DNA from: Paraburkholderia phenazinium | Lineage (GTDB): Bacteria > Pseudomonadota > Gammaproteobacteria > Burkholderiales > Burkholderiaceae | Assembly: GCF_900142845.1 (NCBI RefSeq) | Contig: NZ_FSRU01000001.1 | Coordinates: forward strand, 1,116,001 to 1,180,000 | Reading direction: 5' to 3' | DNA: 64,000 bases | Shown here: positions 7,466-40,043 of the stretch, piece by piece | Position numbering within the stretch: the first letter of the stretch is position 1 | Layout: each line of letters begins with the position of its first letter | Notes under the pieces: generated by a model | What the model was told of the DNA's origin: nothing | Databases searched by the model: none | The model's input: only the letters and a program-made list of their open reading frames with translations | Made by a program: the position numbers and the translations under genes

Positions 7466-7488
7466 ACGTAGTGGACGTCTGCACATCG

Positions 7489-14774: not shown

Positions 14775-14887
14775 CGCTGCTTCCTCTGTTTGCATTGCCA
14801 GCGGGCCTGCGCGTGACCCCACGCAACCTTTGCATCGACTGTAGAAAGTCAAAATAGAAAAGAACAGCAGTTAGAAAGTACGATTTA

Positions 14888-14904
14888 GTTTAGAATTTCT
14901 AAAC
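14888..14904. promoter_or_regulatory. LysR-type operator palindrome
   Basis: GTTTAGA-ATT-TCTAAAC is a perfect 7-bp-arm palindrome lying between the divergent LysR gene (start 14928) and the Rieske operon (start 14774). It fits the T-N11-A architecture of LysR-regulator binding sites, so it is the likely autoregulatory/activation site. Confidence 0.6.
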
Positions 14905-14927
14905 CGTCTTTATCGATCAAACTCGAT

Positions 14928-18089: not shown

Positions 18090-19640
18090 TCAGGCCGGCA
18101 GCGCGAAACTCGAGATGGCTTCGCGCAACACACCCACCTGGTCTTTCAGCGAATGCGCGGCGGCGGCGGCCTGTTCGACGAGCGCGGCGTTTTGCTGCGT
18201 GACCTGATCCATCTCGCCCACCGCGCGGTTGACCTGTTCGATGCCCGCGCTCTGTTCACGCGAGGCGTGGCTGATTTCCTCGAGAATTTCGTTCACGCGA
18301 CGCACCGACTGCACGATCTCGCCCATCGTAGAACCAGCGTTGGCCACGAGCGACGCACCGGCTTCGACGGTGTGCGTCGAGGTTTCGATGAGCGCCTTGA
18401 TTTCCTTGGCGGCGGTGGCGGAGCGTTGCGCGAGGCTGCGCACTTCCGCGGCGACGACGGCGAAGCCGCGGCCCTGTTCGCCGGCGCGGGCGGCTTCGAC
18501 GGCTGCGTTGAGCGCGAGGATGTTGGTCTGGAAGGCGATGCCGTCGATCACGCCGATGATGTCGCCGATCTGGCGCGAGCTATGGGTGATTTCGCCCATG
18601 GTGCGGACCACGTCGTCGACGACGCGGCTGCCGCGCGTGGCGACGTCGGCGGCCTGACCGGCGAGCTGCGCGGCCTGGGTGGCGCTTTCGGCGTTCTGCT
18701 TCACGTTGACGGTCATCTGATCCATGCTCGACGCGGTTTGAACGAGCGCGGCGGCCTGTTCTTCGGTGCGTTGCGAGAGATCGGTGTTGCCGGCGGCGAT
18801 TTCGGTGGCGCCCACATTGATGTTTTCGGTGCCGGTGCGCACGCGCGAGACGGTTTCGACGAGGCCGGCCTGCATCGTATGGAGGGCGTGCAGCAGACTG
18901 CCGGTGTCGCGCTGATGGACTGGCACGCCGACGGCGAGGTTGCCGCTTGCCATGCGTTGGGCGGCGACGACGGCGACTTCGAGGTCGCCGCCGAGGCTGC
19001 GGCGCACGCTACGCAACACGAGGATCATGACGAGGGTGGCGATGCCGCCGAGGATGGCGGTGATGATGAGCCACAGGACCAGATTGGCATAGAAGGTTTG
19101 CTGGACGTCGTCCATGTACATGCCGCTGACGACGTACCAGTCCCAGGGGGCGAAGCGCAATGAGAAGCTGGTTTTGTCGACGGGCTGATCGTGGCCGGGT
19201 TTGGCCCACATGTACTGGACGAAGCCGCCGCCGTCGTGGTTACCGGCGTTGACGATGTTGACATACAGATGATTGCCGGCCGGGTCGGAGAACTGGGCCA
19301 TGTTTTTGCCGTCGAGTTCGGGCTTGATGGGGTGCATCAGCACGACTGGCTGGGAGTCGTTGACGGAGACGTAGCCGTCTTTGCCGTAGCGGACGGAGGC
19401 GAGGGCGGCGAGCGCCTGTTTCTGGGCGTCGGGTTCGCTGAGGGTGTGTTGCTGGGAGAGCGTGTAGTAGTGGTTGATGACGCTGACGGATTCCTGGACG
19501 ACGGCGGTGAGTTGATCACGGCGCTCGGCGATCATGGAGGCGCGGTTCTGCCACGCGCCGAAGCCGCCGATCAGGATCAGGCCGATCCATAACACGACGA
19601 TCATCGACCCGAGTTTTCTGTTCAAGGTCATGGTGTGCAT
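18090..19640 (-). CDS. methyl-accepting chemotaxis protein with Cache-type sensor
   Basis: A 516-residue chemoreceptor. TM1 (about residues 12-30), a periplasmic single-Cache domain with [11 protein letters not shown] and [19 protein letters not shown] motifs ([14 protein letters not shown]) and [14 protein letters not shown] before TM2 (about 187-210), a HAMP linker, and the highly conserved cytoplasmic hairpin tip [28 protein letters not shown] (split here to keep motifs short: [26 protein letters not shown]). It would sense small carboxylates in the periplasm and signal through CheW/CheA. No C-terminal NWETF pentapeptide is seen. Ends in a good terminator. Confidence 0.93.
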
Positions 19641-20786: not shown

Positions 20787-22490
20787 ATGAACGCCCGCGA
20801 ACCCGCCTTTATCGCCGCCTCCCGCAGCAGCCGTCTGCGCCAGATGCTCACCAGCACCCAGCTCGAATTCATGATGGAAGCCCATAACGGCCTCTCCGCT
20901 CGCATCGTCCGCGAAGCCGGCTTCAAGGCCATCTGGGGTTCCGGGCTCGCCATCTCCGCCCAGTTCGGCGTGCGCGACAACAACGAAGCAAGCTGGACCC
21001 AGGTCGTCGATAACCTCGAATTCATGGCCGATGCCAGCGATCTCCCCATCCTCCTGGATGGCGATACCGGCTACGGTAACTTCAATAACGTCCGCCGCCT
21101 CGTCCGCAAGCTAGAACAGCGCGGCATCGCCGGCGTCTGCATCGAAGACAAGCAGTTCCCCAAGACCAACAGCTTCATCAACGGCGAACGTCAGCCGCTC
21201 GCCGAAATGGACGAGTTCTGCGGCAAGATCAAAGCCGGTAAAGACTCCCAAAACGACGAAGACTTCTCCATCGTCGCACGCGTCGAAGCGCTCATCGCCG
21301 GCTGGGGGATGGACGAAGCCCTGCGTCGCGCCGAAGCCTATCGCCAGGCCGGCGCCGACGCGATCCTGATTCACAGCAAGCTGTCGCGTCCCGACGAAAT
21401 CCTCGAGTTCGCCCGCGAATGGGCCGGCCGCGGTCCGCTCGTCATCGTGCCGACCAAGTACTACAGCACCCCCACCGAAGTGTTCCGCGAAGCCGGCATC
21501 AGCACCGTCATCTGGGCAAACCATCTGATCCGCGCCTCAACTTCGGCCATGCAGGCCGTCGCCAAGGAAATTCACGCCAGCGAAACGCTCGTCGACGTCG
21601 AAGACCGCATCGCCTCCGTCAACGAAATCTTCCGTCTGCAAGACGCCGACGAGTACTCGGAAGCCGAAGACCGCTACCTGTCGGCTTCGCGCGCCTCGGC
21701 GTCCGCCGTCGTGCTCGCCGCCAGCCGCGGCGTCGGTCTCGAAGCCGTGACGGCGGATCGTCCCAAGGTCATGCTGCCGATCGCCGGCAAGCCGCTGCTG
21801 CGCTGGCTCGTCGACGCGTTCAAGAAGCAGGGCGTCAACGACATCACCGTGGTCGGCGGCTATCGCGCCGACGCCATCGAAACCGCCGGCATCAAGCTGG
21901 TCGTCAACGAACGCCACGCGGAAACCGGCGAACTGGCCTCGCTCGCCTGCGCCGTCGACGCCCTCAAGTCGGACACGGTCATCTCCTACGGCGACCTGCT
22001 GTTCCGCAGCTACATCGTGCGCGATCTGGTCGAAAGCGAAGCGCCGTTCAGCGTCGTGGTCGATTCGTCGCTGACCGAGCCGGTCAACAAGAGCGTGCGC
22101 GACTTCGCATGGTGCTCGTCGCCCGACGATCGCGGCCTGTTCGGCAACAAGGTGCTGCTCAAGCGCGTGTCGAGCGAACTGCAGGACGCGGATTCGAGCG
22201 AAGCCAAGCTGCCGGACGGCCGCTGGGTCGGTCTGCTGAACGTGCGCGGCGAAGGCCGTGAGCGTCTGCACGCCGTGCTGACCACGTTGCGCGCGCGCCC
22301 CGATTTCGACAAGCTCGATATGCCCGCGCTGCTCAACGCACTGATCGAAGCCGGTGAAGCGATCGAAGTGCAATACGTGCACGGCCACTGGCGCGGCGTC
22401 AACGATCTGGAAGACTTCCGTCGTGCCGGCGATTTCGCCCACGCCCAAGCGCCGCTCGCAACGGGCGCCGCCGGCGGAGAGGCGCAATGA
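20787..22490 (+). CDS. phosphoenolpyruvate mutase fused to a nucleotidyltransferase
   Basis: A 567-residue two-domain protein. Residues 15-300 are PEP mutase: [11 protein letters not shown] (Asp91, Asp93, Mg binding) and the diagnostic [10 protein letters not shown] (120-129). It isomerises PEP to phosphonopyruvate, the entry to C-P bond biosynthesis. Residues 307-567 are a nucleotidyltransferase of the type fused in PntC-like enzymes that make CDP-aminoethylphosphonate, with [14 protein letters not shown] and a metal-binding SYGD. The usual GxGTRL loop is altered to SRGVGLEA (313-320). AGGAG stands 11 bases before the ATG, after a tandem-repeat leader. The next gene overlaps by four bases. 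Confidence 0.92.
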
Positions 22491-23659
22491 TCGAAGCTGC
22501 ACAGTTTGTCGAAGCGGCGCGCGAGCGTGGCTTCGACTGGTATGCCGGGGTGCCCTGCTCGTACCTGACGCCGTTCATCAACTACGTGCTGCAGGATCCA
22601 TCGCTGCATTACGTTTCCGCAGCGAATGAGGGCGACGCAGTCGCGCTGATCGCCGGCGTCACGCTCGGCGCGCAGAACGGCCGTCGCGGCGTCACGATGA
22701 TGCAGAACTCCGGCCTCGGCAATGCGGTGAGTCCGCTCACGTCGCTGACGTGGACGTTCCGTCTGCCGCAACTGCTGATCGTCACGTGGCGCGGCCAGCC
22801 CGGCGTCGCCGACGAGCCGCAGCATGCGCTGATGGGCCCGGTTACGCCCGCGATGCTCGACACCATGGAAATTCCGTGGGAGACCTTCCCGACCGAAGCC
22901 GACGCCATCGGCCCGGCGCTCGACCGCGCAATCGCCCACATGAACGAGACCGGCCGTCCGTACGCGCTGGTGATGCAGAAGGGCAGCGTGGCGCCGTATG
23001 AGTTGAAGCAGGGCGCGAGCGGTGCGCGCCGCACGCCGTGCGTGCCGCAAACGCAGTGGCACGGGGTGGCGACGGATGCGCTGCCGACGCGTCAGGCCGC
23101 GTTGCAGCGCGTGATTGCGCACACGCCGCCGGAGTCGACGGTGGTGCTCGCATCCACCGGCTTTTGCGGCCGTGAACTGTATGCGCTCGACGACCGCTCG
23201 AACCAGTTGTACATGGTCGGCTCGATGGGTTGCCTCACGCCGTTCGCACTGGGTCTCGCGCTCACGCGTCCGGACCTGCATGTGGTCGCCATCGACGGTG
23301 ACGGCGCCGCGCTGATGCGCATGGGCGCGTTCGCGACGATCGGCGCGTACGGCCCGGCCAATCTGACGCACGTGCTGCTCGACAACGGCGCGCACGATTC
23401 GACCGGCGGCCAGGCCACGGTGTCCGCCCAGGTGTCGTTTGCCGGCGTCGCGGCGGCTTGCGGTTACGCGTCGGCAGTCGAAGGCGACGACCTCGCCACG
23501 CTCGACGAAGTGCTCACGTCGCCCAAGCTCGACGGCCCGCGTTTCGTGCGCCTCGCGATTCGCCGCGGCACGCCCGACGGTTTGCCGCGTCCCACCATTA
23601 CCCCGCCGGATGTGAAGACGCGTCTGATGCGCCACATCGGCACCGCTCAAGGAGCCTAA
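22487..23659 (+). CDS. phosphonopyruvate decarboxylase
   Basis: A 390-residue thiamine-diphosphate enzyme. The N-terminal [16 protein letters not shown] and [13 protein letters not shown] (the Glu that activates TPP) and QNSGLGN match phosphonopyruvate decarboxylase; the C-terminal half carries the TPP/Mg motif [13 protein letters not shown] followed by [13 protein letters not shown]. It drives the unfavourable mutase reaction by decarboxylating phosphonopyruvate to phosphonoacetaldehyde. Overlaps the mutase stop by four bases and shares the last base of its own stop codon with the next start. Confidence 0.93.
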
Positions 23660-24729
23660 TGATGCTGCTGCTCAATCCCGGTCCGGTGACGTTGACGGAG
23701 CGCGTGCGGCAGAGTCTGCTGCAACCTGACCTGTGCCATCGCGAAAGCGAGTTCTTCGATCTGCAGGAAGAAGCGCGCACGCGTCTGCTGGACATCTACA
23801 AGCTCGACCCCGCCGAATGGCAGGCCGTGCTGATGACCGGTTCGGGTACGGCCGCGGTCGAAAGCATGATTGCCGGCCTTGTGCCGGAGAACGGCAAGCT
23901 GCTGGTGATCGAGAACGGTGTGTACGGCGAGCGCATTACGCAGATTGCCAGCCAGTACCGCATCGCGCACGAAGCGCTGAAGCACGACTGGATGCAGGGC
24001 CCCGATCTCGAGCGGATCGCCGCACGACTCGATGCCGGCGAGGGCTTTACGCATGTGGCGGTGATTCATCATGAGACCACCACCGGCCGCCTGAACGATC
24101 TGCAGTCGCTTGCGGCGGTGTGCCGCGCGCGCGGCGTGCGTCTGCTGGTGGACGGCGTCAGCAGCTTTGCGGCCGAGGCGATCGACTTCGCCGACAGCAG
24201 TATTGCTGCCGTGGCGGCGACCGCCAACAAGTGTCTGCATGGCGTGCCGGGTGCATCGTTTGTGGTGGTGCGGCGCGAGGCGCTGAAGCAGGCGGCGAGC
24301 CGGACCTACTATCTGGACCTGGGCCGTCTCGCGAAGCTGCAGGATCAGCGCAATACGCCGTTCACACCCTCGGTGCATGCTTACTACGCGCTTGTCGAGG
24401 CGTTGCGCGAACTGGCCGACGAAGGCGGTTGGACCGCGCGTCACGCGCGCTATGCGGCGCTCGCGGAGCAGGCGCGCGCAGGTCTGGCCGAGCGTGGTAT
24501 CGAGAGCGCGTTGCCGCCGCAGCAGTCGTCGGTGGTATTGCGGGCTTATCGCTTGCCGGCGGGTATCAGCTATGTGCAACTGCACGATGCACTGAAGGCG
24601 CGCGGCTTCGTGATTTATGCGGGGCAGGGTGGGCTGTCGGCGGAGCTGTTCCGGATCTCGACGATGGGCAACATTCATCCGGCGGATGTGGAGCGGTTGC
24701 TGCAAGGGTTTAGCGAGTTGACGCGGTAA
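23659..24729 (+). CDS. phnW: 2-aminoethylphosphonate-pyruvate transaminase
   Basis: A 356-residue class V PLP aminotransferase. LLNPGPVTLTERVRQ, LMTGSGTAAVESM, LLVDGVSSFAAEAIDF and ATANKCLHGVPG (the PLP Lys) are typical of PhnW. In this context it probably works in the biosynthetic direction, making 2-aminoethylphosphonate from phosphonoacetaldehyde, because the mutase and decarboxylase precede it with overlaps. GGAG at 23651 favours ATG 23659 or the adjacent ATG at 23662. The operon ends in a 13-bp hairpin at 24748. Confidence 0.93.
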   Translation: MMLLLNPGPVTLTERVRQSLLQPDLCHRESEFFDLQEEARTRLLDIYKLDPAEWQAVLMTGSGTAAVESMIAGLVPENGKLLVIENGVYGERITQIASQYRIAHEALKHDWMQGPDLERIAARLDAGEGFTHVAVIHHETTTGRLNDLQSLAAVCRARGVRLLVDGVSSFAAEAIDFADSSIAAVAATANKCLHGVPGASFVVVRREALKQAASRTYYLDLGRLAKLQDQRNTPFTPSVHAYYALVEALRELADEGGWTARHARYAALAEQARAGLAERGIESALPPQQSSVVLRAYRLPAGISYVQLHDALKARGFVIYAGQGGLSAELFRISTMGNIHPADVERLLQGFSELTR

Positions 24730-24747
24730 ACCGGGCTGCGTTGCTGT

Positions 24748-24778
24748 GAGTTAGCGGCAGCCGCGCTGCCGCTAACTC
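24748..24778 (+). terminator. hairpin closing the phosphonate operon
   Basis: GAGTTAGCGGCAG and CTGCCGCTAACTC form a perfect 13-bp stem around CCGCG, 19 bases after the phnW stop. No T-run follows, so it may stabilise the 3' end rather than act as a standard intrinsic terminator. Confidence 0.55.
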
Positions 24779-24878
24779 CAAACGGATGTCCCGCGCAACG
24801 GAAGGCCTCCGATTGCGCGGGGTCTTGCCGTTCTTTCCTTTAGTTAGGAAAGCGAATGCTCGCTGACCTTGCTATAGG

Positions 24879-25034
24879 TCAAGCGACTAGGGCGAACGCG
24901 CATTCGAACAAGGGAAACGAGGAAACTGAAGCCCGTGCGGTCTCCACGCCGCACATATCGAAGTCCGTCAGCCAGATGCCGTCAAAGCCATCCCGCTCGA
25001 TGGCTTGCGCCAGTTCGACCACGGTCATACCCAC
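24879..25034 (-). pseudogene. fragment resembling a luciferase-like flavin monooxygenase
   Basis: A 51-codon minus-strand frame with VGMTVVELAQAIERDGFDGI and WLTDFD, the pattern of the N-terminal part of luciferase-like/F420-type oxidoreductases, followed by unrelated sequence and a stop. The fragment ends exactly where the deacetylase gene begins on the other strand. Only about 26 residues resemble the family, so this could be chance. Confidence 0.3.
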
Positions 25035-25655
25035 ATGCACCCATCAACGCGATTGAGTTTTGACGACGGTCCAGGACCGTCGACACCTGCACTGCTGGAC
25101 GTATTGCGCGCGAGCGCATGTCAGGCGCTGTTCTTCGTGCTGGGAAGCAACTTGGCGCAGGCGATGGACGTGGCAACCCGCGCGGTCCGCGAAGGACACG
25201 TGCTGGGTAATCACACGTATTCGCATGCCCGGCCGGGTGCGGTGTCGGATGCCGTGTTGAGCGATGAAATCGAGCGAACCGATGCGCTGATCCGCGAGGC
25301 CTATCGGCTCGCGGGCGTGCCGGAGCCGGCCTCGATTCCGTTACGGCTTCCTTATGGTCTGGAACCGCAGGATGTGCGCAGCGACGTGCTGACGCGCCTG
25401 AAGCGCAGCCACACGGGATGGACGGCGATCCTCGACGACTGGTGTCGGCCGCCGCCGTCGCCCCATGCGCTCGCGGAGAGCATGCGTCGGCATATCGCGG
25501 ACAGAATGGCGCTAGGGCTAGATGTGCTGTTTTGCCTGCACGACGGTTCACGCTTCGCGGAAGCGCGGCCCGCGACCGTCGAGGCAGTGCGGTTGCTGCT
25601 CAGCGATCCGGGCTGGCAGACCGGCCCGTTAGCGAACGGGCGAGGGGCTGGCTAG
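25035..25655 (+). CDS. NodB-like polysaccharide deacetylase
   Basis: A 206-residue NodB-fold protein, short but with all five motifs: SFDDGP (catalytic base and metal Asp), GNHTYSH (metal His pair), RLPYG, ILDDW, and LFCLHDG. It would remove an N- or O-acetyl group from an amino sugar or related acylated substrate. No signal peptide, so cytoplasmic. Start at 25035 is 10 codons below an in-frame TTG. It lies 305 bases after phnW on the same strand, and its 3' end overlaps the convergent kinase by 27 bases. Confidence 0.8.
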   Translation: MHPSTRLSFDDGPGPSTPALLDVLRASACQALFFVLGSNLAQAMDVATRAVREGHVLGNHTYSHARPGAVSDAVLSDEIERTDALIREAYRLAGVPEPASIPLRLPYGLEPQDVRSDVLTRLKRSHTGWTAILDDWCRPPPSPHALAESMRRHIADRMALGLDVLFCLHDGSRFAEARPATVEAVRLLLSDPGWQTGPLANGRGAG

Positions 25656-26600
25656 TAACTGTCGCCAGCAGGCCAGGAAGCCCATGCCGGGACCTGGCAT
25701 CCAGAGGCCGCGCTGGGCGGCTTCCAGATGGATCAACAACTGGTCCGCGCAGAACAGGTCCACGAGCGCGTCGCGTTTCAGGCGTATCAGCTCAGATGCC
25801 TCGTCGTCAGGCTGCAGTGCGGCGTAGGCACGCAGGCCCGTATCCCAATGCCGGACGTCGAAAGTGAAACGGTCTTCATCGGTCGCGTCGCGCGAGAGTG
25901 CGAATAGTGCAAAGGCGGCTTCCAGCCAGTGCGCGCCTTGCCCGACGTCGTCGAAATCGAGCACACCCGTCACCGTGTCATTGGCGAACAGCAGGTTGCC
26001 GGCGTGATAGTCGCCGTGCAGCCAGCGCGCCGGTCCGCGAATCCACGCAGCCGCCGCTGCCAGATGCATGCCGATCCGCCGCAGCACCCCATCGTAGTGC
26101 TCCAGAAGGATCGCGGGCAAAGGCGGCGCCGGTCGTGAAGAAACGCGTGCGTAGCGCTCGTTGAGCCACGCGAGCGGATCGGACGCGTTCGCGGAGATTG
26201 TCGCCATCGCCGCATGCAGATGGGCGAGCGTATGCATCGCGTCGGCGATGGCTGACTCCGCCCCGTCAGGCAGACCGGGCGTGCCGTCAATGTGCTCGAA
26301 CAGATGCAACCAGCTTCCGTCTTCGGCTTGCGCGTACGGCTGTGCGTTCAAGGTCGATTGAAACCGCGGCAGCGTGGGCAGTCGCGGCGACGAGCCGAGA
26401 CGATCCAGCATCGATGCTTCGCGCTGGACCTGATCCGCGGATTTGCCGGGCCATGAGACGCGCAGCACGGCAGCGCGCGAGCCGCAGTCGATGCGATAGG
26501 TTTTGTTAGTATGGCCCGTCGATAGCGCCTGAATCCGCGTCGGCCGGATGTCCCAGTGCTTCATCAGCAGCAGTTCGAGTCTTTCCACGTCATTCATCAT
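25629..26600 (-). CDS. APH-fold small-molecule kinase
   Basis: About 323 residues with the aminoglycoside/homoserine kinase (APH/ThrB2) fold: LSTGHTNKTYRI (nucleotide loop), VLRVSWPG (Lys replaced by Arg-containing strand), catalytic WLHGDYHAGNLLF and the DFG-equivalent VLDFDDVG. It would phosphorylate a hydroxyl of a sugar, amino alcohol or amino acid with ATP. Start could be 26600, 26648 or 26564; 26600 leaves 10 bases to the divergent CmcI-like gene. Convergent overlap with the deacetylase. Confidence 0.75.
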   Translation of the reverse strand: MMNDVERLELLLMKHWDIRPTRIQALSTGHTNKTYRIDCGSRAAVLRVSWPGKSADQVQREASMLDRLGSSPRLPTLPRFQSTLNAQPYAQAEDGSWLHLFEHIDGTPGLPDGAESAIADAMHTLAHLHAAMATISANASDPLAWLNERYARVSSRPAPPLPAILLEHYDGVLRRIGMHLAAAAAWIRGPARWLHGDYHAGNLLFANDTVTGVLDFDDVGQGAHWLEAAFALFALSRDATDEDRFTFDVRHWDTGLRAYAALQPDDEASELIRLKRDALVDLFCADQLLIHLEAAQRGLWMPGPGMGFLACWRQLLASPSPVR

Positions 26601-26610
26601 TGCATCGATC

Positions 26611-27246
26611 ATGTCCGAGCGAATTTCGTCCCGCATGCGGGACATCAATATCGAATGGCTTACGCGCGCAGCCGAGTTCGACCATCTGTTCCATACGCGC
26701 TGGCTGGGTGAGCGCTTCTTTCATCTGCCGGGCGACATGCTCGCGATCCAGGAACTGATCTGGCGCGAACGCCCCGACTGCATCGTGCAAACGGGCATCG
26801 CGGGCCGCGTCGTCGCCATCGAGCCGCGCCTGCGCGACGAGGTCAAGGCGCGTCTGCAATCGAACCGGCTGGCGCATCGCATGGTGCTGATCGAAGGCGA
26901 ATCGTGCTCGGCCGCGACATTGGCGTCGGTCCGCGAACAGATCGACGGCTGCGCCTCCGTGATGGTGATCCTCGACCTCACGCACACGCACGAGCACGTC
27001 CTGCGCGAGCTGGAATGCTACGCGGGACTCGCGACGCCTGGCAGCTACGTGATCGTCATGGACACCATCATGGAATACCTGCCGGAGCGGATGTTTCATG
27101 GCAAGCCTTACGGAAGGGGCAACAACCCCGCCACCGCCGCGCAGGCTTTCCTCGCTCGCGACACGCGCTTCGAAGTCGACGGCGATATCGAAGACCGCGT
27201 GCTCATGACGCTGTCGCCGGGCGGCTTCCTGAAGCGAGTTCGATGA
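26611..27246 (+). CDS. CmcI/cephalosporin-hydroxylase-family protein with shortened SAM site
   Basis: A 211-residue member of the CmcI family (SAM-dependent O-methyltransferase fold). Landmarks: TRWLGERFFHLPGDMLAIQE, RPDCIVQTGIA, LIEGESCS, VMVILDLTHTHEHVLREL, MDTIMEYLP and YGRGNNPATA. Relatives have about 17-19 more residues after TGIA, beginning HGGS; here TGIA runs straight into GRVVAIEP. That removes the glycine-rich SAM loop, so activity may be altered or lost. Most likely it once methylated a sugar or acyl intermediate. Its 3' end overlaps the glycosyltransferase gene by 44 bases. Confidence 0.75.
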   Translation: MSERISSRMRDINIEWLTRAAEFDHLFHTRWLGERFFHLPGDMLAIQELIWRERPDCIVQTGIAGRVVAIEPRLRDEVKARLQSNRLAHRMVLIEGESCSAATLASVREQIDGCASVMVILDLTHTHEHVLRELECYAGLATPGSYVIVMDTIMEYLPERMFHGKPYGRGNNPATAAQAFLARDTRFEVDGDIEDRVLMTLSPGGFLKRVR

Positions 27247-28408
27247 TCAGGCGCGCAGCCTGCGCCGAGCCGTCGCGCTGGTAGCTCGCGGCGATCTGCG
27301 CGGCTCGCTCGCGCAGCGGACCCGGGCGCAGCAGATCGCCGAGCGCGGTGGCGATATCCTGCACCGTTGCCTGCTCCAGATCCAGGCAACGTCCTGCGCC
27401 GGCCCGTTCGACGAACCACGCGGAATGGAACTGGTCGTTGCAGAACGGCGACAGCAGCATGGGGACGCCGCATGCCAGCGCTTCCATCACCGAGTTGGCG
27501 CCGCCGTGGTTGATGAACGCGTGCGAGCGCCGCAGCAGGGCCAGTTGCGGCGCGTAGCGTACGGCGATGACCCGCTCGTCCGCAGCCGGCAGCAGGTCGG
27601 TGTCGACCAGTTCGCCGACGGACAGCACGAGCTGCGCGGAGGTGGCGCGCGTCGCCTCGATGACTTTCGCAAACAGCTCCGGCTGGTAGTACAACTGGCT
27701 GCCCAGCGACATATAGACGAGTGGACGCGACGCGTCGATGCGTTCCCACGGAAAAGGCGGCTCGTCGCCGCGCGGGCCGGCCGGCAGCGCGGGACCGACC
27801 AGCTCGACGCCTTGCGGCGGCTCGCCGACGAGATCCTCGGTGGTGAAGGCGAGCGTCAGGTGCGGCGAGAGCACGTCGCAGCCGCGAAAGCGCGCTTCGA
27901 TTCCATAGCGTGCGAACAGGCGGTCGCGTTCCGGCGTGAGCCATCGCACCGTGCTGAGCAGTTCCGAGTCGAGCGAATCCGGCAGCACCGGATTCAGCGA
28001 GTTCGACATCGCGACCCACGGCAAGCCCTCCAGCTCCGCGGCGATAGCCGATGCGTAGAGCAGCGGATCGATCACCACCACGTCGGGTCGCCACTGCCGC
28101 AAGATCGCGCGCAGGCCGTCCACCTGCGCGGGCGTCTGTTCGATCAGCAGCGTGTGAATCCAGCGCCGCAACCAGGCGGCGTCGCGAATGTTCGCGGCGA
28201 AACTCGCACCGCGCGACAGATCGTGGCGCTCGGGTGTTTCGCGCGGTCCGAGAAAAGCGAAGGCGCCCGCAGCGTCGAGTTGTGCGCTGATGTCGGCGGG
28301 GGCGTAGAACGCGACTTCGCAGTCCGCCGCCTGCAGATGCTGGGCGGGGCCGATGCACGGGTTGACGTGTCCCTTTTCGGGCACCACGCAGAACAGGATA
28401 CGTTTCAT
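27203..28408 (-). CDS. GT1-family glycosyltransferase (UDP-sugar, MGT type)
   Basis: A 401-residue GT-B enzyme: N-terminal ILFCVVPEKGHVNPCIG (acceptor domain) and C-terminal donor motif INHGGANSVMEALACGVPML followed by PFCNDQF. This matches macrolide-type/flavonoid-type GT1 enzymes that move glucose, glucuronate or rhamnose from a nucleotide sugar to a small hydrophobic acceptor rather than building polysaccharide. It is eight bases downstream of the asparagine-synthetase-like gene, so part of the minus-strand operon. Confidence 0.88.
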   Translation of the reverse strand: MKRILFCVVPEKGHVNPCIGPAQHLQAADCEVAFYAPADISAQLDAAGAFAFLGPRETPERHDLSRGASFAANIRDAAWLRRWIHTLLIEQTPAQVDGLRAILRQWRPDVVVIDPLLYASAIAAELEGLPWVAMSNSLNPVLPDSLDSELLSTVRWLTPERDRLFARYGIEARFRGCDVLSPHLTLAFTTEDLVGEPPQGVELVGPALPAGPRGDEPPFPWERIDASRPLVYMSLGSQLYYQPELFAKVIEATRATSAQLVLSVGELVDTDLLPAADERVIAVRYAPQLALLRRSHAFINHGGANSVMEALACGVPMLLSPFCNDQFHSAWFVERAGAGRCLDLEQATVQDIATALGDLLRPGPLRERAAQIAASYQRDGSAQAARLIIELASGSRPATAS

Positions 28409-28415
28409 GGTCGTT

Positions 28416-29468
28416 TTATAGTGAGCGCGTGATCGCGCCCAGGTGGTCCAGAGTGAGTGTCAAGGTCGTCCACAGCACACGTTCCGTGTCGGCTTCGAGC
28501 GTGGGAGCGGGCAGCTCGAGCGAGTCGGCCAGGGCGCGGATGCGGTCGCGCTCGAGCCACTCGCCGAGGTCCATCGCAGGCGCCAGCCGGCCACGCTTCG
28601 GACCGTGCACCAGCCGCTCCGGCAGGTGCAAACGTCCGCCGAGTTCGCGCAGACACTGCTTGTTCGGATCGGGTGGAATGCTGGTCAGATGCGCGACGAC
28701 GTTCGGGTCCACAAACGGCGGACACAGGCTAACCGACGCCGCCCCGAACAACGCGTTGCATAGCGGCAGATAGTTGGCGGACTGATCGCGGCGCAGCACC
28801 TGGTCGGCGCCGTCGCCGGTAATGGCGAGTTCGATGCCGTCCTCGGCCATCGCTTCGGCCAATAGCAGCTTCGCGACCGGGTGCAGGTTGAACATCGGCT
28901 CTTCGACAATGTGCGTCGCCCTGGGCAGCGCGGCAACGAAGTCGGCTTCGCTCACCCGCACGATCTTCACGTTGGCCTGCATCTGCGTCGCCAGTTCGAG
29001 CGCGGCGTCCTCCTCGCAATAGTCGGGCATACCGGTTGCCAGAATGTACGAGGTCACGTGCCGCTGTGCGCCGAGTTCGCGCAGCAGTGCAAGCAGAAGC
29101 GCGGAGTCGAGACCTCCGCTCAAGGCGAGTGCGACGCGCTTGCCGCTTTCGAGCGCACGTTGCAGCGAATCGCGCAGCACGGTCTCCAGATCGCTGGAGA
29201 CCGGTTGGTTGAACGCGTCGCGTACTTCGAGGCCGAGCGGCGACTGGAGCAGCGCATGGCCGGGCGGAACGGCCAGCACGTCGCGCAACACCGTGCGTGC
29301 GACGGGGCGAGCGCCGCTTAGATAGCCGGCAATAGCGGCCACGTCGGGTTCGCCGGCGGCATGCCCCGATCCCAGGAGTACTTGCCGGATGCTGGGCGCC
29401 CACGTGCCGCTGCGCGGATGGTAGAGCAGGCGCTGGAAGCCGAAGAGATCTCGCGTGCCGACAATCAT
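28416..29468 (-). CDS. asparagine-synthetase-like ligase without an intact glutaminase domain
   Basis: A 350-residue protein. The synthetase domain has the ATP pyrophosphatase loop ALSGGLDSAL (117-122 SGGLDS), ITGDGADQVL and FNLHPVAKL. The N-terminal 70 residues resemble only the C-terminal half of the class II glutaminase domain (RDLFGFQRLLYH, SGARPVARTVLRDVLAVPPGH); the N-terminal nucleophile Cys1 and its half-domain are absent. It would therefore use free ammonia or an amine to make an amide from an adenylated acid. Start ATG overlaps the radical SAM stop by four bases. Confidence 0.82.
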   Translation of the reverse strand: MIVGTRDLFGFQRLLYHPRSGTWAPSIRQVLLGSGHAAGEPDVAAIAGYLSGARPVARTVLRDVLAVPPGHALLQSPLGLEVRDAFNQPVSSDLETVLRDSLQRALESGKRVALALSGGLDSALLLALLRELGAQRHVTSYILATGMPDYCEEDAALELATQMQANVKIVRVSEADFVAALPRATHIVEEPMFNLHPVAKLLLAEAMAEDGIELAITGDGADQVLRRDQSANYLPLCNALFGAASVSLCPPFVDPNVVAHLTSIPPDPNKQCLRELGGRLHLPERLVHGPKRGRLAPAMDLGEWLERDRIRALADSLELPAPTLEADTERVLWTTLTLTLDHLGAITRSL

Positions 29469-30337
29469 GGATAGCGCGCCTTCAAGGCGTCCACTTCAAT
29501 GCGCCGCATGATGCGGTGGGGCGCCTGTGGCGCACTGCCGCCGTAGCAATGCATGCAGGCTTCGAGCGGCGCTTCGCGCTGCAGATAGGCCAGCAGCGCA
29601 TCGAGCATGCCGGCGTCGTCGCGCAGCGGCAGACCGTCGGAGCGAAAGTCGCGCTCGCCCTGGTACAAGGTCTGAAAATGCGCCGGGCGCGTACAGGTAT
29701 AAAACATGCCGTCCCGGATCATGTGACATCGTTCGCGAATCCAGCAGTCGTGATAGATACGCTTTGCCTCGGCGATATCATCGGATGGCTGCGTGCGGGT
29801 CATGCTCGAGAACGCGTCCTGTATCTTCCAGTTCAGACGCACGTCGAAGCGTGCTGCCTGGGCTTCGATGTGCGCGATCAGAGCGGGCGCGAGCGACGGC
29901 TTCGGATAGCGCGAGATGGTCAGCGCATCGACCGCTTGCCAGAAATCGTCCGTCATGTCGCCGAGTTTCAGGCCGTTGGTCGTGATGGAGACGACCGGCG
30001 CGATACCTGTCGTGCGCACGCCCCGGATCACGTCGACGAGTTGCGGATGCAGCAGCGGTTCGCCGCCCACCAGCTTGAAGACGCGGGGATTCAGCACCTT
30101 GACGGCCTTGCGCAGGTCGTCGACAACCGACTCGGGCGTCGCATACCACGTGGGCAGCAACGGCGACAGCGAACAGCACTCGGCGCAGGTCAGATTGCAG
30201 TGATCGACGATGTGCGCCTCCAGCGAACGCGTCTCTACGCGTCCTGCGGACACGCGATAGTGACGGTCCATGGGCGGTGGAAAGACATGCGTTCGTCCAT
30301 CGGGCGACGTCGTGCTCACGGGAGCGTTCAGGTTCAT
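29465..30337 (-). CDS. radical SAM enzyme
   Basis: A 290-residue radical SAM protein: the CxxxCxxC cluster is Cys47, Cys51, Cys54 (HCNLTCAEC), followed by KLVGGEPLLHP (the GGE SAM motif) and VSITTNGL. The C-terminus has extra Cys in DCWIRERCHMI, FYTCTRP and CMHCYGG, fitting a SPASM-like auxiliary iron-sulfur cluster. Such enzymes perform radical dehydrogenation, epimerisation or C-C/C-S bond formation. The substrate is unknown. It is coupled to the kinase upstream and the ligase downstream by ATGA overlaps. Confidence 0.85.
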   Translation of the reverse strand: MNLNAPVSTTSPDGRTHVFPPPMDRHYRVSAGRVETRSLEAHIVDHCNLTCAECCSLSPLLPTWYATPESVVDDLRKAVKVLNPRVFKLVGGEPLLHPQLVDVIRGVRTTGIAPVVSITTNGLKLGDMTDDFWQAVDALTISRYPKPSLAPALIAHIEAQAARFDVRLNWKIQDAFSSMTRTQPSDDIAEAKRIYHDCWIRERCHMIRDGMFYTCTRPAHFQTLYQGERDFRSDGLPLRDDAGMLDALLAYLQREAPLEACMHCYGGSAPQAPHRIMRRIEVDALKARYP

Positions 30338-31332
30338 GGGCGTCCTGCGTCCAGACAACGGGAAAAGAAATCGATCAGGCGGCCGCGCGCGCCGAGCATC
30401 GTCGAGACCATGTTCATCGCGCCGTGCAGATGCGAGGCGAAGCGCGGTGGATCGTTCAGCCAGCCTTGCACGACCCAGCGCTTGAGGGCGTGCTGCAGAC
30501 AGGCGGCATCGACGGCCCACGCGATCCGTTCGGGCTGCAGCGGCCGGACTTGCAGATAGGCGCGTACGAACGCCGCGGCGAGCTCCGGCGCTTCCAGCGG
30601 CAGATGGTTAAGACAACGGACCACTTCGAATTCGCGCGGCGCACCGATTGCCGCTTCCCAGTCGAGGATGACCGGCGGCAGGGCGCCGTCGAACAGATAG
30701 TTGAACTGGTTATAGTCGTTGTGGATCGGATGCTGCGGATCGTCGGCGGGAAAGGTGTCGATGCTGCCGGGGTAGTGCGAGTCGAGCATGCGCAGGCACG
30801 CATCGACATACGTGCGTAACAGCGCCGCGTCGCCCTCGGGCGGCATGCGGTCGAGGGGGTCTAGCAGGCTGCGGCGGATGTCGTCGGCGTCGATGGCGGT
30901 GAGGCGCGCGCGAATCGTGTCGAGCGTCGGCAGCGTCAGCCGGTCGAGGCTCAGATGCAAGGCCGCGAGGCTCGCACCGAGCGCGCGCCACTCGGATGGC
31001 GTGAAGGTGTCGTAAGTGCGAAATTGCCCGGTTTCCCAGCGTGTGAGCATCGCCTGACCGTCGAAGCCGGTCCATGCCGGTTCGCCCGCTGCCGTACGTT
31101 GCAGCGCCTGGACGCGAAAGCGCGCGTCGCCATGCGTCGCCAGATGCGCGAGGACGGCGGCTTCCTTGTGCGCTCGCGTGTGCTGCTCGACGGTGTAGAG
31201 CTTGACGGCGAGGTCGCCGCTTCCGGTCGGCAGATGCCAGACGCGCTCGCTGATGCGGCGCGCGGGCCCGCTTTGCTTCAGCGCATAGGACTCGCAGATC
31301 GCGTCGAAGGTGGCGCGGGGTGGCTGGTCCAT
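30334..31332 (-). CDS. APH-fold kinase (second copy in the cluster)
   Basis: A 332-residue APH-fold protein distinct from the first. Nucleotide strand DLAVKLYTVEQ has the expected Lys; catalytic loop PIHNDYNQFNYLF keeps His/Asp/Asn with HND in place of HGD; the metal-binding motif is VILDWEAAIGAP. Similar to CotS/homoserine-kinase-like sugar or amino-acid kinases. Its start directly abuts the stop of the FkbM-like gene, so they are translated from one mRNA. Confidence 0.75.
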   Translation of the reverse strand: MDQPPRATFDAICESYALKQSGPARRISERVWHLPTGSGDLAVKLYTVEQHTRAHKEAAVLAHLATHGDARFRVQALQRTAAGEPAWTGFDGQAMLTRWETGQFRTYDTFTPSEWRALGASLAALHLSLDRLTLPTLDTIRARLTAIDADDIRRSLLDPLDRMPPEGDAALLRTYVDACLRMLDSHYPGSIDTFPADDPQHPIHNDYNQFNYLFDGALPPVILDWEAAIGAPREFEVVRCLNHLPLEAPELAAAFVRAYLQVRPLQPERIAWAVDAACLQHALKRWVVQGWLNDPPRFASHLHGAMNMVSTMLGARGRLIDFFSRCLDAGRP

Positions 31333-32148
31333 TCAGATCTGCTCGGCAGGGCCGTAGCGATACGGATGGCCGCTCAGGAACGTGTTGTGGCCGACATAGC
31401 GCAGCTTGTACATCGCCGGACGGAACAGCACTGAGGGATCGTTGCGGGCGATGCCGAGGAGCGGATACAGATCGCGGCGGACGAAGAAGGCGTTATTGCC
31501 CATGTCGTCGCAACACACCAGTTCGTAGCCTTTGCGTTTGGCGAGATGATGCAGCGATTCCAGGCTGGCTCCGTAATAGGTCGAGCCGTCCCATTCGTGC
31601 ACGGGGTTGAAGCACATGACCCAGCGCTCGGGTGGCGCGTAGTACGGGTTGTATTCGACGACCACGATGCGCGGCTGGAAGGCTTCGATGCCCTGCCAGA
31701 CCCAGTAATCGTTGCCGTCGATATCGATCGACAGCAGATCGAACGCTTCAGGCACGCCTGCATCGACGAGCAATCGGTCCACGCTGTCCGGCTGGACGCG
31801 TTCATGGCGAAGCTGGACACCATCGGCACTGCCGTAGTTCGCCTTGAGTTTGCCGTAACGGTAGTCGCTGCCTTCGACCAGCAGCCCTTGCCATCCGCCT
31901 TCACGCAGCAGTAACGCGGTGTTGCTGTTGCGCATGCCGTCGCTCGCGCCGATGTCCACGCAGAAGCGGTTGGTCGGCGCAATCCGCTCCATCAGGCGCG
32001 CGAGAATGGGTTCTTCGCTGCCCTGGGCGTACAGGCTTTGAGCGAGACCCGACAGGTCGAGTGGGACAGCAGAGTCCTGCATGGCTGGTTGCGCGGCAAA
32101 GAGAATTTTTGATCGAAGGGTAATGTACCCGAAATCCACTGCAGTCAC
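31333..32148 (-). CDS. FkbM-like methyltransferase
   Basis: Up to 271 residues; SAM motif RFCVDIGASDGMRNSNT, then GLLVEGSDYR, LLSIDIDGNDYWVW and VVVEYNPYY, the pattern of FkbM-type O-methyltransferases that act on glycan or polyketide hydroxyls. The start is uncertain: GTG 32148 has GAGG too close, ATG 32082 lacks a ribosome-binding site but gives a typical N-terminus. First gene of the minus-strand operon; its promoter must lie in the 232 bases shared with the divergent FkbH-like gene. Confidence 0.78.
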   Translation of the reverse strand: MTAVDFGYITLRSKILFAAQPAMQDSAVPLDLSGLAQSLYAQGSEEPILARLMERIAPTNRFCVDIGASDGMRNSNTALLLREGGWQGLLVEGSDYRYGKLKANYGSADGVQLRHERVQPDSVDRLLVDAGVPEAFDLLSIDIDGNDYWVWQGIEAFQPRIVVVEYNPYYAPPERWVMCFNPVHEWDGSTYYGASLESLHHLAKRKGYELVCCDDMGNNAFFVRRDLYPLLGIARNDPSVLFRPAMYKLRYVGHNTFLSGHPYRYGPAEQI

Positions 32149-32380
32149 GACCTCGGCCGCCGCCTGTATGCCGGTTGGATAGGGTCCATCGCCACTGCGT
32201 TACGTAACGCTCGCCTGCGCGTACCGGTTACGACGGCCGTCGCGTGGCCGGATGCCATCCATCCGGCTAGCGGTGAAAGCGTTTTCGTCGCTTGGATGAG
32301 GGCGGTTGACGTTGGCACGGAGTTCGCTTACTGGGAGCGCCACTTCCATTCGACCTTGCCTTGAGAAGAGACCGTCGCCG

Positions 32381-34102
32381 ATGCCCGACCATAGCTTCGC
32401 CAAACCGCTCCTTAAAAACGCTGTGAAGCTCGTCGTCTGGGATCTGGACGAGACCTTCTGGAACGGGACGCTATCCGAAGAGGGCATCACGCCCATCGCC
32501 GAGAATGTCGAGATGGTCAAGCAACTGGCCCGCCGCGGCATTATCTCGTCGGTCTGCTCGAAGAACGAACCCGACCGCGCGTTGGCGGCTTTGCGCGAGC
32601 TGGACGTGCTGGATTACTTCGTGTTGCCCAGCGTGAGCTTTCAGCCGAAGGGCAAGTCGATTGCCGGCATTGTCTCGGCACTCCAGCTCCGGCCGGACAA
32701 CGTCGTCTTCATCGACGACAATCCGTCTGTCCTCGCGGAAGCCGGCTACTGTTGCCCAGGCATGGTCTGCCTGGAGAGTCCACATCAGCTTGCTGCGTTG
32801 ATGGACAGTCCGTTCCTGCAAGGCGCGCACGACAGCGAGCTGACCCGGCTGCAGCAATACCGCCTGCTGGCCGAGAAGCAGAACCTCAAGCAAACAGAGG
32901 GAGGCAGCGACGAGCGCTTCCTGCGCGCGAGCGAGATCCGCATCGAGATCGACTTCGCGGTTGAGGAGAACATTGAGCGCATCGTCGAGCTCATCAATCG
33001 TTCAAATCAGCTCAACTACACGAAACGCCGCATCGAAACCGAAGAGGCGCGCCGCCGTCTGCTTGCGGACCTCCGGGCCTTCGGTTTCAATGCCGGCGTC
33101 GTGCGCGTCTGGGACAAGTTCGGCGACTATGGCATCGTTGGCTTCTTCATGACGCTGGCCACCTTGCGCGAGTATCGACTGGAGCACTTTGTCTTCTCGT
33201 GCCGCATCATGAATATGGGCGTGGAGCAGTACGTTTATGAATACCTGAACCGGCCCAGCATCGAGATTGTCGGTCCGGTCGCCAATGCCATTGAAACCTT
33301 TGCGAGCGTGGACTGGATCAAGGACGGTTCGCGCAGCGCAGTGATTTCCACGCTGCGCCGGTACAAGCTGGTTGTCGTCGGCGGCTGCGACATGCTTCAA
33401 CTGTCGACCTACTGCTCGGCCGACTCGAGTGAATTCACGAACCGGCAACAAAACGGCTTCATGAAGCGCCTCGACGATCCGTTCCTCATCCTCGACGATC
33501 CCGAGCGCGTCCGGAAGAGCGAACTGCGACCGTACATCCCTGCCTTCAACGCCGACGACATGCTGGCCCTGAAGCATGCCGCGCAGGAGGGCGACCTGAT
33601 TGTCCTGTCGCTCTACCGGATGATGGAAGTCAACTACTTTCGCGGGACGGACGGCTTGACGGTTCGGCTCGACGAGGACGCCGTACGCGACATCCTGAAG
33701 TCCGAGCTTGCCCTCTGGTTCGTGCGGAATTTCAACTTCGTCCCGTCGAGCAACGAGGAGCGCCACGAGATCATTCGCATGGTCCTTCACACACTCTCGT
33801 CCTGGATCAAGCCGGGTGCGAAGATCGTGGTGCTGCTCGAAAACACCCGCAAACTAGAGAGCAATCCGGACGAGAAGGCGCTTCGACAGCGCTACAACGC
33901 GTTCATCGTCGACATGTGCAAGGCACTTGATAATCTGACCTATATCGACGTCAACGCCGTCACGGGCATTGAGTGGCTTTTCGACGACGGCTTCCACATG
34001 CGTCGCGAGGGCTACTACGAACTGGCTCAGGCCGTGACCGGCGTCCTGGACGAGTCCCGGCAGGAATATCAGCCGGCCATGGCTCTAGCCAGCGTCGGTT
34101 GA
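32381..34102 (+). CDS. FkbH-like HAD-IIIC protein with C-terminal SGNH-like domain
   Basis: A 573-residue protein. Residues 15-160: HAD-IIIC domain with WDLDETFWNGTLSEEG (Asp21, Asp23) and FIDDNPSV. Residues about 190-330: the acyltransferase-like part, INRSNQLNYTKRRI and DKFGDYGIVGFF, both diagnostic of FkbH. Residues about 350-573: a hydrolase-like domain starting VVVGGCDMLQL and ending DGFHMRREGYYELA, like an SGNH esterase (DxxH) but with Cys where Ser is expected. FkbH loads a glyceryl group from 1,3-bisphosphoglycerate onto a carrier protein; no carrier is encoded nearby. Start set by Met-Pro-Asp-His. Confidence 0.85.
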   Translation: MPDHSFAKPLLKNAVKLVVWDLDETFWNGTLSEEGITPIAENVEMVKQLARRGIISSVCSKNEPDRALAALRELDVLDYFVLPSVSFQPKGKSIAGIVSALQLRPDNVVFIDDNPSVLAEAGYCCPGMVCLESPHQLAALMDSPFLQGAHDSELTRLQQYRLLAEKQNLKQTEGGSDERFLRASEIRIEIDFAVEENIERIVELINRSNQLNYTKRRIETEEARRRLLADLRAFGFNAGVVRVWDKFGDYGIVGFFMTLATLREYRLEHFVFSCRIMNMGVEQYVYEYLNRPSIEIVGPVANAIETFASVDWIKDGSRSAVISTLRRYKLVVVGGCDMLQLSTYCSADSSEFTNRQQNGFMKRLDDPFLILDDPERVRKSELRPYIPAFNADDMLALKHAAQEGDLIVLSLYRMMEVNYFRGTDGLTVRLDEDAVRDILKSELALWFVRNFNFVPSSNEERHEIIRMVLHTLSSWIKPGAKIVVLLENTRKLESNPDEKALRQRYNAFIVDMCKALDNLTYIDVNAVTGIEWLFDDGFHMRREGYYELAQAVTGVLDESRQEYQPAMALASVG

Positions 34103-34144
34103 AGTTGGGGCGAACGTCGTACCGGTCGCCCTCAACCCCCATCC

Positions 34145-34297
34145 TCAAACCGGATCTTTATCCGGCGGTCCCTCGGGCCGCTGCGGCTCGTCGTTGTGAT
34201 GGCCCGGCGAGGGCGGCGCGAGCGGATCGCCTTCCGGGTCGCGCGTCGGGTCCGCAATGGGGTCGGGGATCGGACTGGTATGCATGCGGTCATTCAT
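34145..34297 (-). CDS. small proline/aspartate-rich protein, 50 residues
   Basis: A 50-residue frame with a good ribosome-binding site (GAGGTGA five bases before the ATG) and a start four bases below the deacetylase stop, so co-transcribed with it. The protein is Pro/Asp/Gly-rich, acidic and probably disordered: SPIPDPIADPTRDPEGDPLA, then PPSPGHHNDEPQRP, ending in Lys-Asp-Pro-Val. No hydrophobic segment. Function unknown; the type of small conserved protein common in this group. Confidence 0.5.
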   Translation of the reverse strand: MNDRMHTSPIPDPIADPTRDPEGDPLAPPSPGHHNDEPQRPEGPPDKDPV

Positions 34298-34301
34298 GAC
34301 A

Positions 34302-35024
34302 TCACCTCGCGGGATGGGAGCGGCGCACGGGCGTGCGGGACACGCTCAGCTGCCAGTAGTGTTCGGCGTTAAACACATCGTCATAGCCCTGCGGCCCGAA
34401 CGCGCGCAACTGGCTGGCGTACGCCGCGACCGCCTCGCGCTTGAGCGACGCCTGGCGCCCGGCGTCGATTGTGTGATCCGCCGACGGATGGGCCGGCGTC
34501 GCCACGATGCCGCGTCGCTCCAGATCATCGAGGCGCGCCGCCACGACGCCCGGCTGGCGGCGGTGGATCGCATCCTCATACGCAAACCACGCGAGGTGCG
34601 ACAGCCGCGGCAGGATTTCGCAGCAGGCGTCGAACACCAGCACGTGATCCGCATGGTGCAGGCCGAGCGGCATCAGCAGCGTATTCGCGGTCGAACGGTA
34701 AATGGTTTCTTCGAGCGCCGCCGCCAGCCGGCTGATCGACGGCGAGTCGAGATACTGGCCGTCGCGAAACGGCATGCGTACCGGCACCGCATCGAACAGC
34801 TCGAGCGCACGATTGTCTTCAAGCGTACGCGCATTGACCGATTCTTGCGCGCCGGGAAAGCCGGCCTTGCTGTCCCAATCGGTCTGCATATTCTGCTCGG
34901 GCGCTGCGGCGAACACGGTGCAGACGACGGCGTCGGAATGGGTGGCGAGCAACGCGCCGCAACTGAAGACGGCGTCGTCGAAGTGGGGCGAGACGATAAA
35001 AAGACGCGGGCTGGTTTCGCTCAT
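34302..35024 (-). CDS. PIG-L/LmbE-family deacetylase
   Basis: A 240-residue protein with the PIG-L zinc site: SPHFDDAVFSCG (His-x-Asp-Asp) at the N-terminus and LHHADH for the third ligand. Family members remove N-acetyl groups from GlcNAc-type sugars, mycothiol precursors and antibiotic intermediates. Start at 35024 (Met-Ser-Glu-Thr) directly precedes the first strand; extension upstream is Arg-rich. Convergent with the FkbH-like gene and separated from it by the 50-residue gene. Confidence 0.87.
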   Translation of the reverse strand: MSETSPRLFIVSPHFDDAVFSCGALLATHSDAVVCTVFAAAPEQNMQTDWDSKAGFPGAQESVNARTLEDNRALELFDAVPVRMPFRDGQYLDSPSISRLAAALEETIYRSTANTLLMPLGLHHADHVLVFDACCEILPRLSHLAWFAYEDAIHRRQPGVVAARLDDLERRGIVATPAHPSADHTIDAGRQASLKREAVAAYASQLRAFGPQGYDDVFNAEHYWQLSVSRTPVRRSHPAR

Positions 35025-35227
35025 GGATCGAAATGGGTTCTCGGAGGCGCGCGGGCGGCTGCATCCGGTATGTCGACGGGACAGCGTCACATCAGCTTAG
35101 ACCGTATTGAAGCCGCTTGCGCAGAAGCTGGCCGTCGCAAGGCGTGTGCCTGACGGCGCCGCCTTAGCGTCTTGGCTGCGCCGGCGCTGATGCCGGCACA
35201 GGCGCTGACGCCGACGCGGCGCGCCGC

Positions 35228-35815
35228 TCACAGGCCGTGCAGATCCTCGGGCGTATCGACGTCGCGCAAAATGCCGGGATCGTCGACATCGAGCCGTGCG
35301 ACCTGATGCGTGGCCAGCAGGGCGCGCGCGCCGGTGTCGCCGTCGAGTCTCATCAGCGCGTCGCGATGCTCGGGGCCGAAGCCGACCGGATGACCGCGCT
35401 GACCCTGATAGAACGGCACGACGATCGAGGCGCCGCCGTCGAGCGTGCGCGCGACCGCTTCCACCGTGGCGACCGCAATGCGCGGCATATCGGCCAGCGC
35501 GACGATCCAGCCTTCCGAGTCGGCGCTGGCTTCGATGCCCGCCGCGAGGCTCGCGCCCATGCCGCGCTCGGCGTCGCTGGAGAACACCACGTCGCAGCCC
35601 GCGTCGTTCAGCATGCGGGCGAGCGCCTCGGAGCCGGGACGCACCACCGCGAGTACGTGCGACACGACCAGCAGGAGTCGATGAGCCGCCTCATGGGCCA
35701 CGATGCCGCCGTCCGGCATGCGGGCGAGCAGCTTGTTGTGCAGGCCGTCCGGGTCGAAGCGCGACCCGTAGCCGGCGGCAAGCAGCACGCCGGTGGCGAG
35801 CGAGGCGTAGGCCAT
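35228..35815 (-). CDS. MobA/MocA-like molybdenum-cofactor nucleotidyltransferase
   Basis: A 195-residue nucleotidyltransferase: LLAAGYGSRFDPDG (LAAGxGxR nucleotide loop), NKLLAR, and IVALADMPR (metal-binding Asp, DMP motif typical of MobA/MocA). It would attach CMP (MocA) or GMP (MobA) to molybdopterin. Sitting 90 bases below the aldehyde oxidoreductase large subunit, it most likely makes the cytosine dinucleotide form that xanthine-oxidase-family enzymes of the Pao type need. Confidence 0.85.
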   Translation of the reverse strand: MAYASLATGVLLAAGYGSRFDPDGLHNKLLARMPDGGIVAHEAAHRLLLVVSHVLAVVRPGSEALARMLNDAGCDVVFSSDAERGMGASLAAGIEASADSEGWIVALADMPRIAVATVEAVARTLDGGASIVVPFYQGQRGHPVGFGPEHRDALMRLDGDTGARALLATHQVARLDVDDPGILRDVDTPEDLHGL

Positions 35816-35905
35816 GGGGCGGCACCTGGAAAGGGAATGAGGTCGATTGTGCGGCGCAACCGGCGAGCAGGCAAGCACCAATATGTCGACCCCGTGCGTT
35901 CCCGC

Positions 35906-39144: not shown

Positions 39145-39156
39145 GGCCGTGCTCCG

Positions 39157-39873: not shown

Positions 39874-40043
39874 AACGTTCTGTTTGCTCCATGAAAGGTC
39901 GATGCAAACCCGCGACGCCTCGGCAGTCCGATGCATGCGCGTACAACGAATCAGCCAGCAATTTCAGTGCCCCGTCCGCGCGTACCACGGCGCTGGCAGG
40001 TCGCGCTTCACTATAGTCAATGTAAAACACGATCAACCGCCGT

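Follow-up and report, generated by a model that had tools for sequence, protein, structure and literature searches.

At positions 20,787–35,090 of a 64,000-nucleotide stretch of Paraburkholderia phenazinium DNA (the window; 1,116,001–1,180,000 on contig 1 of the 3 contigs of an 8.5-Mb genome), genes for 2-aminoethylphosphonate (AEP) adjoin a group of tailoring genes built around a radical S-adenosylmethionine (SAM) enzyme. The question raised by this locus is whether these genes form a single phosphonate cluster. The AEP operon and the adjoining cassette are almost certainly two independent systems. An earlier note on this DNA had proposed that the genes jointly make a phosphonate-containing product, with two neighbouring systems as its fallback. 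Every gene it named was present with the stated family (Pfam, NCBIfam); the joint product did not survive comparison with relatives, where the linkage is absent and the AEP sites are empty, and the fallback did. A tempting wrong cluster boundary is thereby corrected, and a conserved unit of ~7 kb is isolated.

An insertion beside a resident AEP operon

The AEP operon lies on the forward strand and encodes a phosphoenolpyruvate (PEP) mutase fused to a MobA-like nucleotidyltransferase (20,787–22,490; PEP_mutase + NTP_transf_3, TIGR02320), a phosphonopyruvate decarboxylase (Ppd; 22,487–23,659) and an AEP aminotransferase (23,656–24,729). In five close relatives (L085, L087, L089, L091, L092) the alignment to the window ends at 24,729–24,739 and restarts at 34,136–34,149, with just 11–84 bases in between. 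As these relatives pass directly from the transaminase to a PIG-L deacetylase gene (here 34,302–35,090, reverse strand; PF02585), ~9.4 kb was inserted here between the two (24,730–34,136, an eight-gene cassette plus fkbH), and PIG-L is a resident of the AEP locus. AEP loci were fetched from 10 genomes, and the cassette was at the site in 0/10. PIG-L lay within ~450 bases of the transaminase in seven of the ten, none with the cassette there, and six of those seven share with the window the mobA and xanthine-dehydrogenase-type genes that come next. In G048 and G079, PIG-L was reached only after another 2.5–2.9 kb, and it was not found in the AEP locus of G015. Membership of PIG-L in the radical SAM module of this genome was ruled out, as the gene goes with the AEP locus in relatives.

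Radical SAM orthologues (at least 72% identity) were found in 6/146 genomes, own genome counted; 44 others gave weak radical SAM matches only. The cassette stood beside the AEP genes in none of the five other same-genus carriers. Radical SAM and mutase genes were on different contigs in G059 (C46 and C434) and G015 (C97 and C72), and on the same contig at a distance in G030 (3.44 vs. 0.04 Mb), G048 (0.99 vs. 2.03 Mb) and G079 (2.26 vs. 2.35 Mb). The earlier note had named the genes being unlinked in relatives as the observation that would overturn its headline, and for nodB to fkbM this is what was found.

A joint pathway, in which the adjoining genes would incorporate AEP into their product, draws on the adjacency of the two gene sets in this genome and on the mutase fusion being full-length in 17 of 26 other genomes with the cassette or its distant core (the count took 26 of 29 named loci; L056, L057 and L064 were left out). 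However, nearly all genomes of the genus have the fusion regardless (103/117, own genome counted), and nine of the 26 carriers are without it. Seven of these nine are metagenome-assembled genomes (MAGs), which may be incomplete, and only three of the nine (L072, L073, L076) hold all eight cassette genes: Bordetella sp. LUAb4, Achromobacter sp. HZ34 (with a mutase-domain match of 43%) and the L076 MAG. Since such all-eight carriers exist, the cassette can exist without the AEP operon, mainly on the evidence of the two isolates. A joint pathway was therefore ruled out by synteny and empty sites, and it retains almost no credence.

Profile scores within the operon exceeded their cutoffs for the mutase (TIGR02320, 403.2 vs. 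319.55 bits), the fused nucleotidyltransferase (PF12804, 54.4 vs. 27 bits), the decarboxylase (TIGR03297, 468.5 vs. 312.5 bits) and the aminotransferase (TIGR03301, 404.9 vs. 360.8 bits). The mutase motif EDKXXXXXNS, a 10-residue stretch, is present at residue 120. The transaminase open reading frame (ORF) opens at 23,458, and the conserved protein begins at ~23,656. The operon would make AEP, and the fused nucleotidyltransferase, judged by its family, probably yields a CMP-activated form used in decorating a glycan or lipid of the cell surface. Both pathways are likely to have additional genes elsewhere.

Upstream, a Cache-domain chemoreceptor gene (18,090–19,640) was near the mutase fusion in 14/19 other genus loci, some of the rest being short contigs. 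Downstream, a MobA-like cytidylyltransferase gene and three xanthine-dehydrogenase-type genes (35,228–39,936) show synteny with the AEP locus of relatives. Called ORFs in 300–15,869 have a third-position G+C of ~0.63–0.76, under that of most of the window past 15.9 kb, and this region is possibly an older island. No Rfam family matched within the window at gathering scores.

The conserved eight-gene cassette

The synteny search that the earlier note had called for returned eight genes, nodB(+), aph1(-), cmcI(+), GT1(-), asnB-like(-), rSAM(-), aph2(-) and fkbM(-), with order and orientation kept in 28/34 loci; the cassette is therefore a set beyond chance co-occurrence. These 28 loci correspond to ~26 genomes (L022/L056 and L028/L057 are the same genomes) and come from Burkholderia cepacia complex species, Paraburkholderia, Trinickia, Achromobacter, Bordetella, Chitinasiproducens and one proteobacterial MAG. 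The remaining six comprise two short contigs, L075 (4 genes) and L077 (2 genes, with cmcI directly adjoining rSAM, a departure from the standard order), and the distant loci L079–L082, with two or three genes each. Nucleotide homology to cassette loci covered ~25,022–32,150 of the window, and no further, in seven of eight compared; the eighth had an internal break.

The cassette opens with a NodB-type polysaccharide deacetylase (25,035–25,655, +; PF01522, catalytic motifs invariant in 8/8), followed by APH-fold kinase 1 (aph1; 25,629–26,612, -; PF01636, motifs invariant in 8/8), a CmcI/RMNT-type methyltransferase (cmcI; 26,611–27,246, +; PF04989, RMNT_CmcI) and a GT1 glycosyltransferase (27,203–28,408, -; UDPGT/EryCIII-like). 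An AsnB-type ATP-pyrophosphatase ligase without a glutaminase domain (28,416–29,468, -; Asn_synthase) precedes a twitch radical SAM enzyme of the SpeY/HygY family, a predicted epimerase (29,465–30,337, -), APH-fold kinase 2 (aph2; 30,334–31,332, -; PF01636, motifs invariant in 9/9) and an FkbM-type methyltransferase (fkbM; 31,333–32,082, -; PF05050). Starts were taken from alignment with relatives for aph1 (26,612), cmcI (26,611), fkbM (32,082) and nodB (~25,035), and the radical SAM start was placed at 30,337, where its ATG overlaps the aph2 stop, not at 30,520. The gene coupling described in the earlier note was confirmed along fkbM-aph2-rSAM-asnB-GT1, whose successive junctions are adjacent, a 4-bp ATGA overlap, a second 4-bp ATGA overlap and a spacing of ~7 bp. 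The aph1 and cmcI starts meet head to head with a 2-base overlap (26,611–26,612), so these two genes have no common upstream region. Families closer than those named did not appear in the VIA-align lists, which excludes nothing.

The cmcI gene of this strain has an in-frame gap of 18 residues that includes the glycine-rich SAM motif, kept by all 8 aligned relatives. With this motif gone, cmcI is probably a decaying or dead gene here, and its methylation step is probably lost. An FkbH-SGNH protein gene (32,306–34,102, +) completes the inserted block and stands outside the conserved cassette. Its FkbH domain scored 161 bits vs. a cutoff of 146.65 (TIGR01686), with a sub-threshold GDSL/SGNH match, and its G+C is 59.6% vs. 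65%. Elsewhere in 117 genus genomes a single full-length copy was found, on contig C248 of G059, whose cassette is on C46. As a conserved-cassette gene fkbH was ruled out, being seen in 0/34 cassette or core loci.

The radical SAM protein was present in 18/249 family genomes (4/25 genera) and in 1/398 phylum-sample genomes, the own genome only. A broader radical SAM profile matched 3/188 genomes in the phylum of a Myxococcales MAG and 7/246 in that of a Planctomycetota MAG, the starting genome counted in each. Against Trinickia soli, mean synonymous divergence (dS) was 0.236 for the cassette (2364 codons) and 1.072 for the mutase, whereas against the same-genus genomes G059 and G030 it was 0.419 and 0.418 for the cassette and 0.324 and 0.293 for the mutase. 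The cassette is thus nearer to another genus' copy than to those of closer hosts, which indicates lateral transfer as judged against one core gene. Ratios of nonsynonymous to synonymous divergence (dN/dS) of 0.08–0.34 across 39 cassette gene pairs point to genes kept under purifying selection. Both dS and dN/dS are Nei-Gojobori values from single pairs, and B. lata nodB was left out on account of a bad automatic ORF call. The cassette is thus both conserved and mobile. Literature searches on it, or on the mutase in Burkholderia, returned nothing useful, and those on the cassette gave no description of its product.

A candidate amino-sugar metabolite

On balance, the eight genes probably make a small glycosylated amino-sugar metabolite by aminoglycoside-like logic, with no aminocyclitol genes. 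The chemistry proposed below has an even chance of being correct, and from the gene families we infer substrates, step order and product. GT1 would transfer a hexosamine, which is probably N-acetylated, onto a small acceptor, and NodB would take the acetyl group off the glycoside; in aminoglycoside assembly, transferred N-acetylglucosamine is likewise then deacetylated. Like HygY, the twitch radical SAM enzyme would abstract a hydrogen from one hydroxyl-bearing carbon of this glycoside and return one from Cys204, inverting the configuration there. Having no glutaminase of its own, the AsnB-type ligase would convert a carboxylate to acyl-AMP and couple it to free ammonia or to an amine, giving an amide. 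Both APH-fold kinases may phosphorylate hydroxyls, in biosynthesis or self-protection, and FkbM and CmcI would methylate. The combination of glycosyltransferase, deacetylase and APH-fold kinase known from aminoglycoside clusters was found, at the level of family only.

Distant versions of the cassette bear on the deacetylation step. The radical SAM gene is near a GT1 gene in L079, L080, L081, L082, L125 and L128, with an AsnB-type gene close to it in the first five of these; in L127, GT1, a full AsnB and PIG-L lie beside the radical SAM match. NodB was recognised in none of the distant loci. Pfam supported a PIG-L gene in L081 and L128, BLAST did so in L127 and L128, and clustering in L082; in L080 and L125 PIG-L was recognised from sequence reading alone, and in L079 it was not recognised. 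Since unrelated deacetylase families swap in the same gene company, and do so across phyla, N-deacetylation is suggested to be a core step of the chemistry. Beside GT1 and PIG-L in L079–L082, L125 and L128, a partner protein carries DIGQT-, NDAELAA- and LTLGFG-like stretches, which we take to recall ROK/ASKHA sugar kinases. No Pfam match was obtained for it in L081, L082, L125 or L128 (three of them searched at E up to 0.1), so a swap of kinase family is a lead. L129, L131 and L123 were set aside as short, weak or lacking called ORFs.

Several observations weigh against an amino-sugar metabolite made in this way. No aminotransferase, NDP-sugar (nucleoside diphosphate sugar) or aminocyclitol gene was found among the eight; for aminocyclitols, the search for inosose synthase, or inositol dehydrogenase plus aminotransferase, covered these eight genes only. 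The two APH-fold proteins stand well apart from known resistance enzymes, with weak or no kinase-profile matches, cmcI is probably dead in this strain, and the more distant radical SAM relatives in L126 and L130 lack these partners. Overlap with a hygromycin-type cluster beyond the radical SAM gene came to one 55-residue APH match (E = 4.8e-4). The part given here to HygY Cys183, deciding between epimerase and dehydrogenase, is an assumption.

Decoration of O-antigen, capsule or a glycolipid at the cell surface, with no free small molecule, would agree with the lack of any transporter, carrier protein, non-ribosomal peptide synthetase or polyketide synthase among the eight genes (Pfam), and loci for surface glycans also include members of the FkbM, NodB, PIG-L and FkbH families. 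Yet flippase, polymerase, ligase and sugar-nucleotide genes are all absent from the cassette, GT1 is nearest to small-molecule glycosyltransferases such as YjiC, Kcn28, OleI/OleD-type and CalG enzymes, and both SpeY and HygY act on soluble glycosides; we consider this role rather unlikely. Modification or detoxification of an external aminoglycoside-like compound by the kinases, glycosyltransferase and methyltransferases is improbable. The unit is compact and mobile, and its pair of APH-fold kinases and its MGT-type GT1 are similar to inactivating enzymes, but inactivation does not usually involve a radical SAM enzyme, NodB or an amide ligase, and matches between the kinase profiles and known resistance kinases are weak or absent.

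If a small amino-sugar metabolite is indeed made, the cassette may tentatively be assigned to a class of pathway not yet described, compact and mobile, in which Gram-negative bacteria build an aminoglycoside-like metabolite around a HygY-type epimerase, a glutaminase-less AsnB ligase and GT1, without aminocyclitol genes. It is conceivable, with similar reserve, that Planctomycetota, Myxococcota and Burkholderiales all employ this logic with different deacetylase, and possibly different kinase, families.

Comparison with known systems

The AEP operon is ordinary and fits the published pattern. The published account (Nat Commun 2019, PMC6697681) puts the share of PEP mutase (Ppm) enzymes with a fused nucleotidyltransferase domain at ~60%, PF12804 being the most frequent, and proposes a surface-tailoring role for this activation. 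The Ppm motif, PF12804 fusion, Ppd and transaminase of the operons described there are all present here; unlike in those operons, a phosphonyl-transferase gene was not recognised adjacent, and the neighbours are the chemoreceptor and PIG-L.

Compared with AsnB, beta-lactam synthetase (BLS) and carbapenam synthetase (CarA), the cassette ligase begins at AsnB residue 132, where the model alignment starts, and lacks the glutaminase domain (no GATase match in Pfam). Of the two domains of a glutamine-dependent asparagine synthetase, it thus has the ATP-pyrophosphatase domain and not the N-terminal glutaminase; its SGG-DS motif was invariant in 12/12 sequences.

The radical SAM enzyme scored 25 bits with Pfam Radical_SAM, under the cutoff of 29.5. 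Its CxxxCxxC motif and four auxiliary-cluster cysteines are common to all 9 aligned rows, including SpeY and a HygY-like protein, and it has the twitch radical SAM fold of SpeY and HygY. With a SpeY-like fold, 32% identity to SpeY and these cysteines in common, it could be a dehydrogenase like SpeY (spectinomycin; PDB 7wzv/7wzx/7x0b), oxidising a sugar hydroxyl to a ketone and giving a keto-sugar product. This is unlikely, as SpeY has a serine where the cassette enzyme has Cys204, at the position that we take to decide between dehydrogenase and epimerase. The cysteine, at HygY position 183, is present in HygY and in 33/34 cassette-family sequences (L082 ends before it), and the gene company of SpeY is unlike that of the cassette. 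HygY inverts a sugar carbon in hygromycin B, and because its cysteine is kept here and absent in SpeY, the cassette enzyme is predicted to be a sugar-carbon epimerase.

The presumed HygY orthologue of a Streptomyces sp. SAT1 plasmid is 36% identical over the radical SAM protein. Its cluster gave a convincing match for 0 of the other seven cassette genes and has aminotransferases, dehydrogenases, other glycosyltransferases and ATP-binding cassette (ABC) transporters, which the cassette is without; a hygromycin-like cluster was thus ruled out beyond the radical SAM gene. The HygY-like protein itself shares all cysteines with the cassette enzyme, including position 183/204, and this HygY-type residue pattern leads to a testable epimerisation prediction for a radical SAM family outside actinomycetes.

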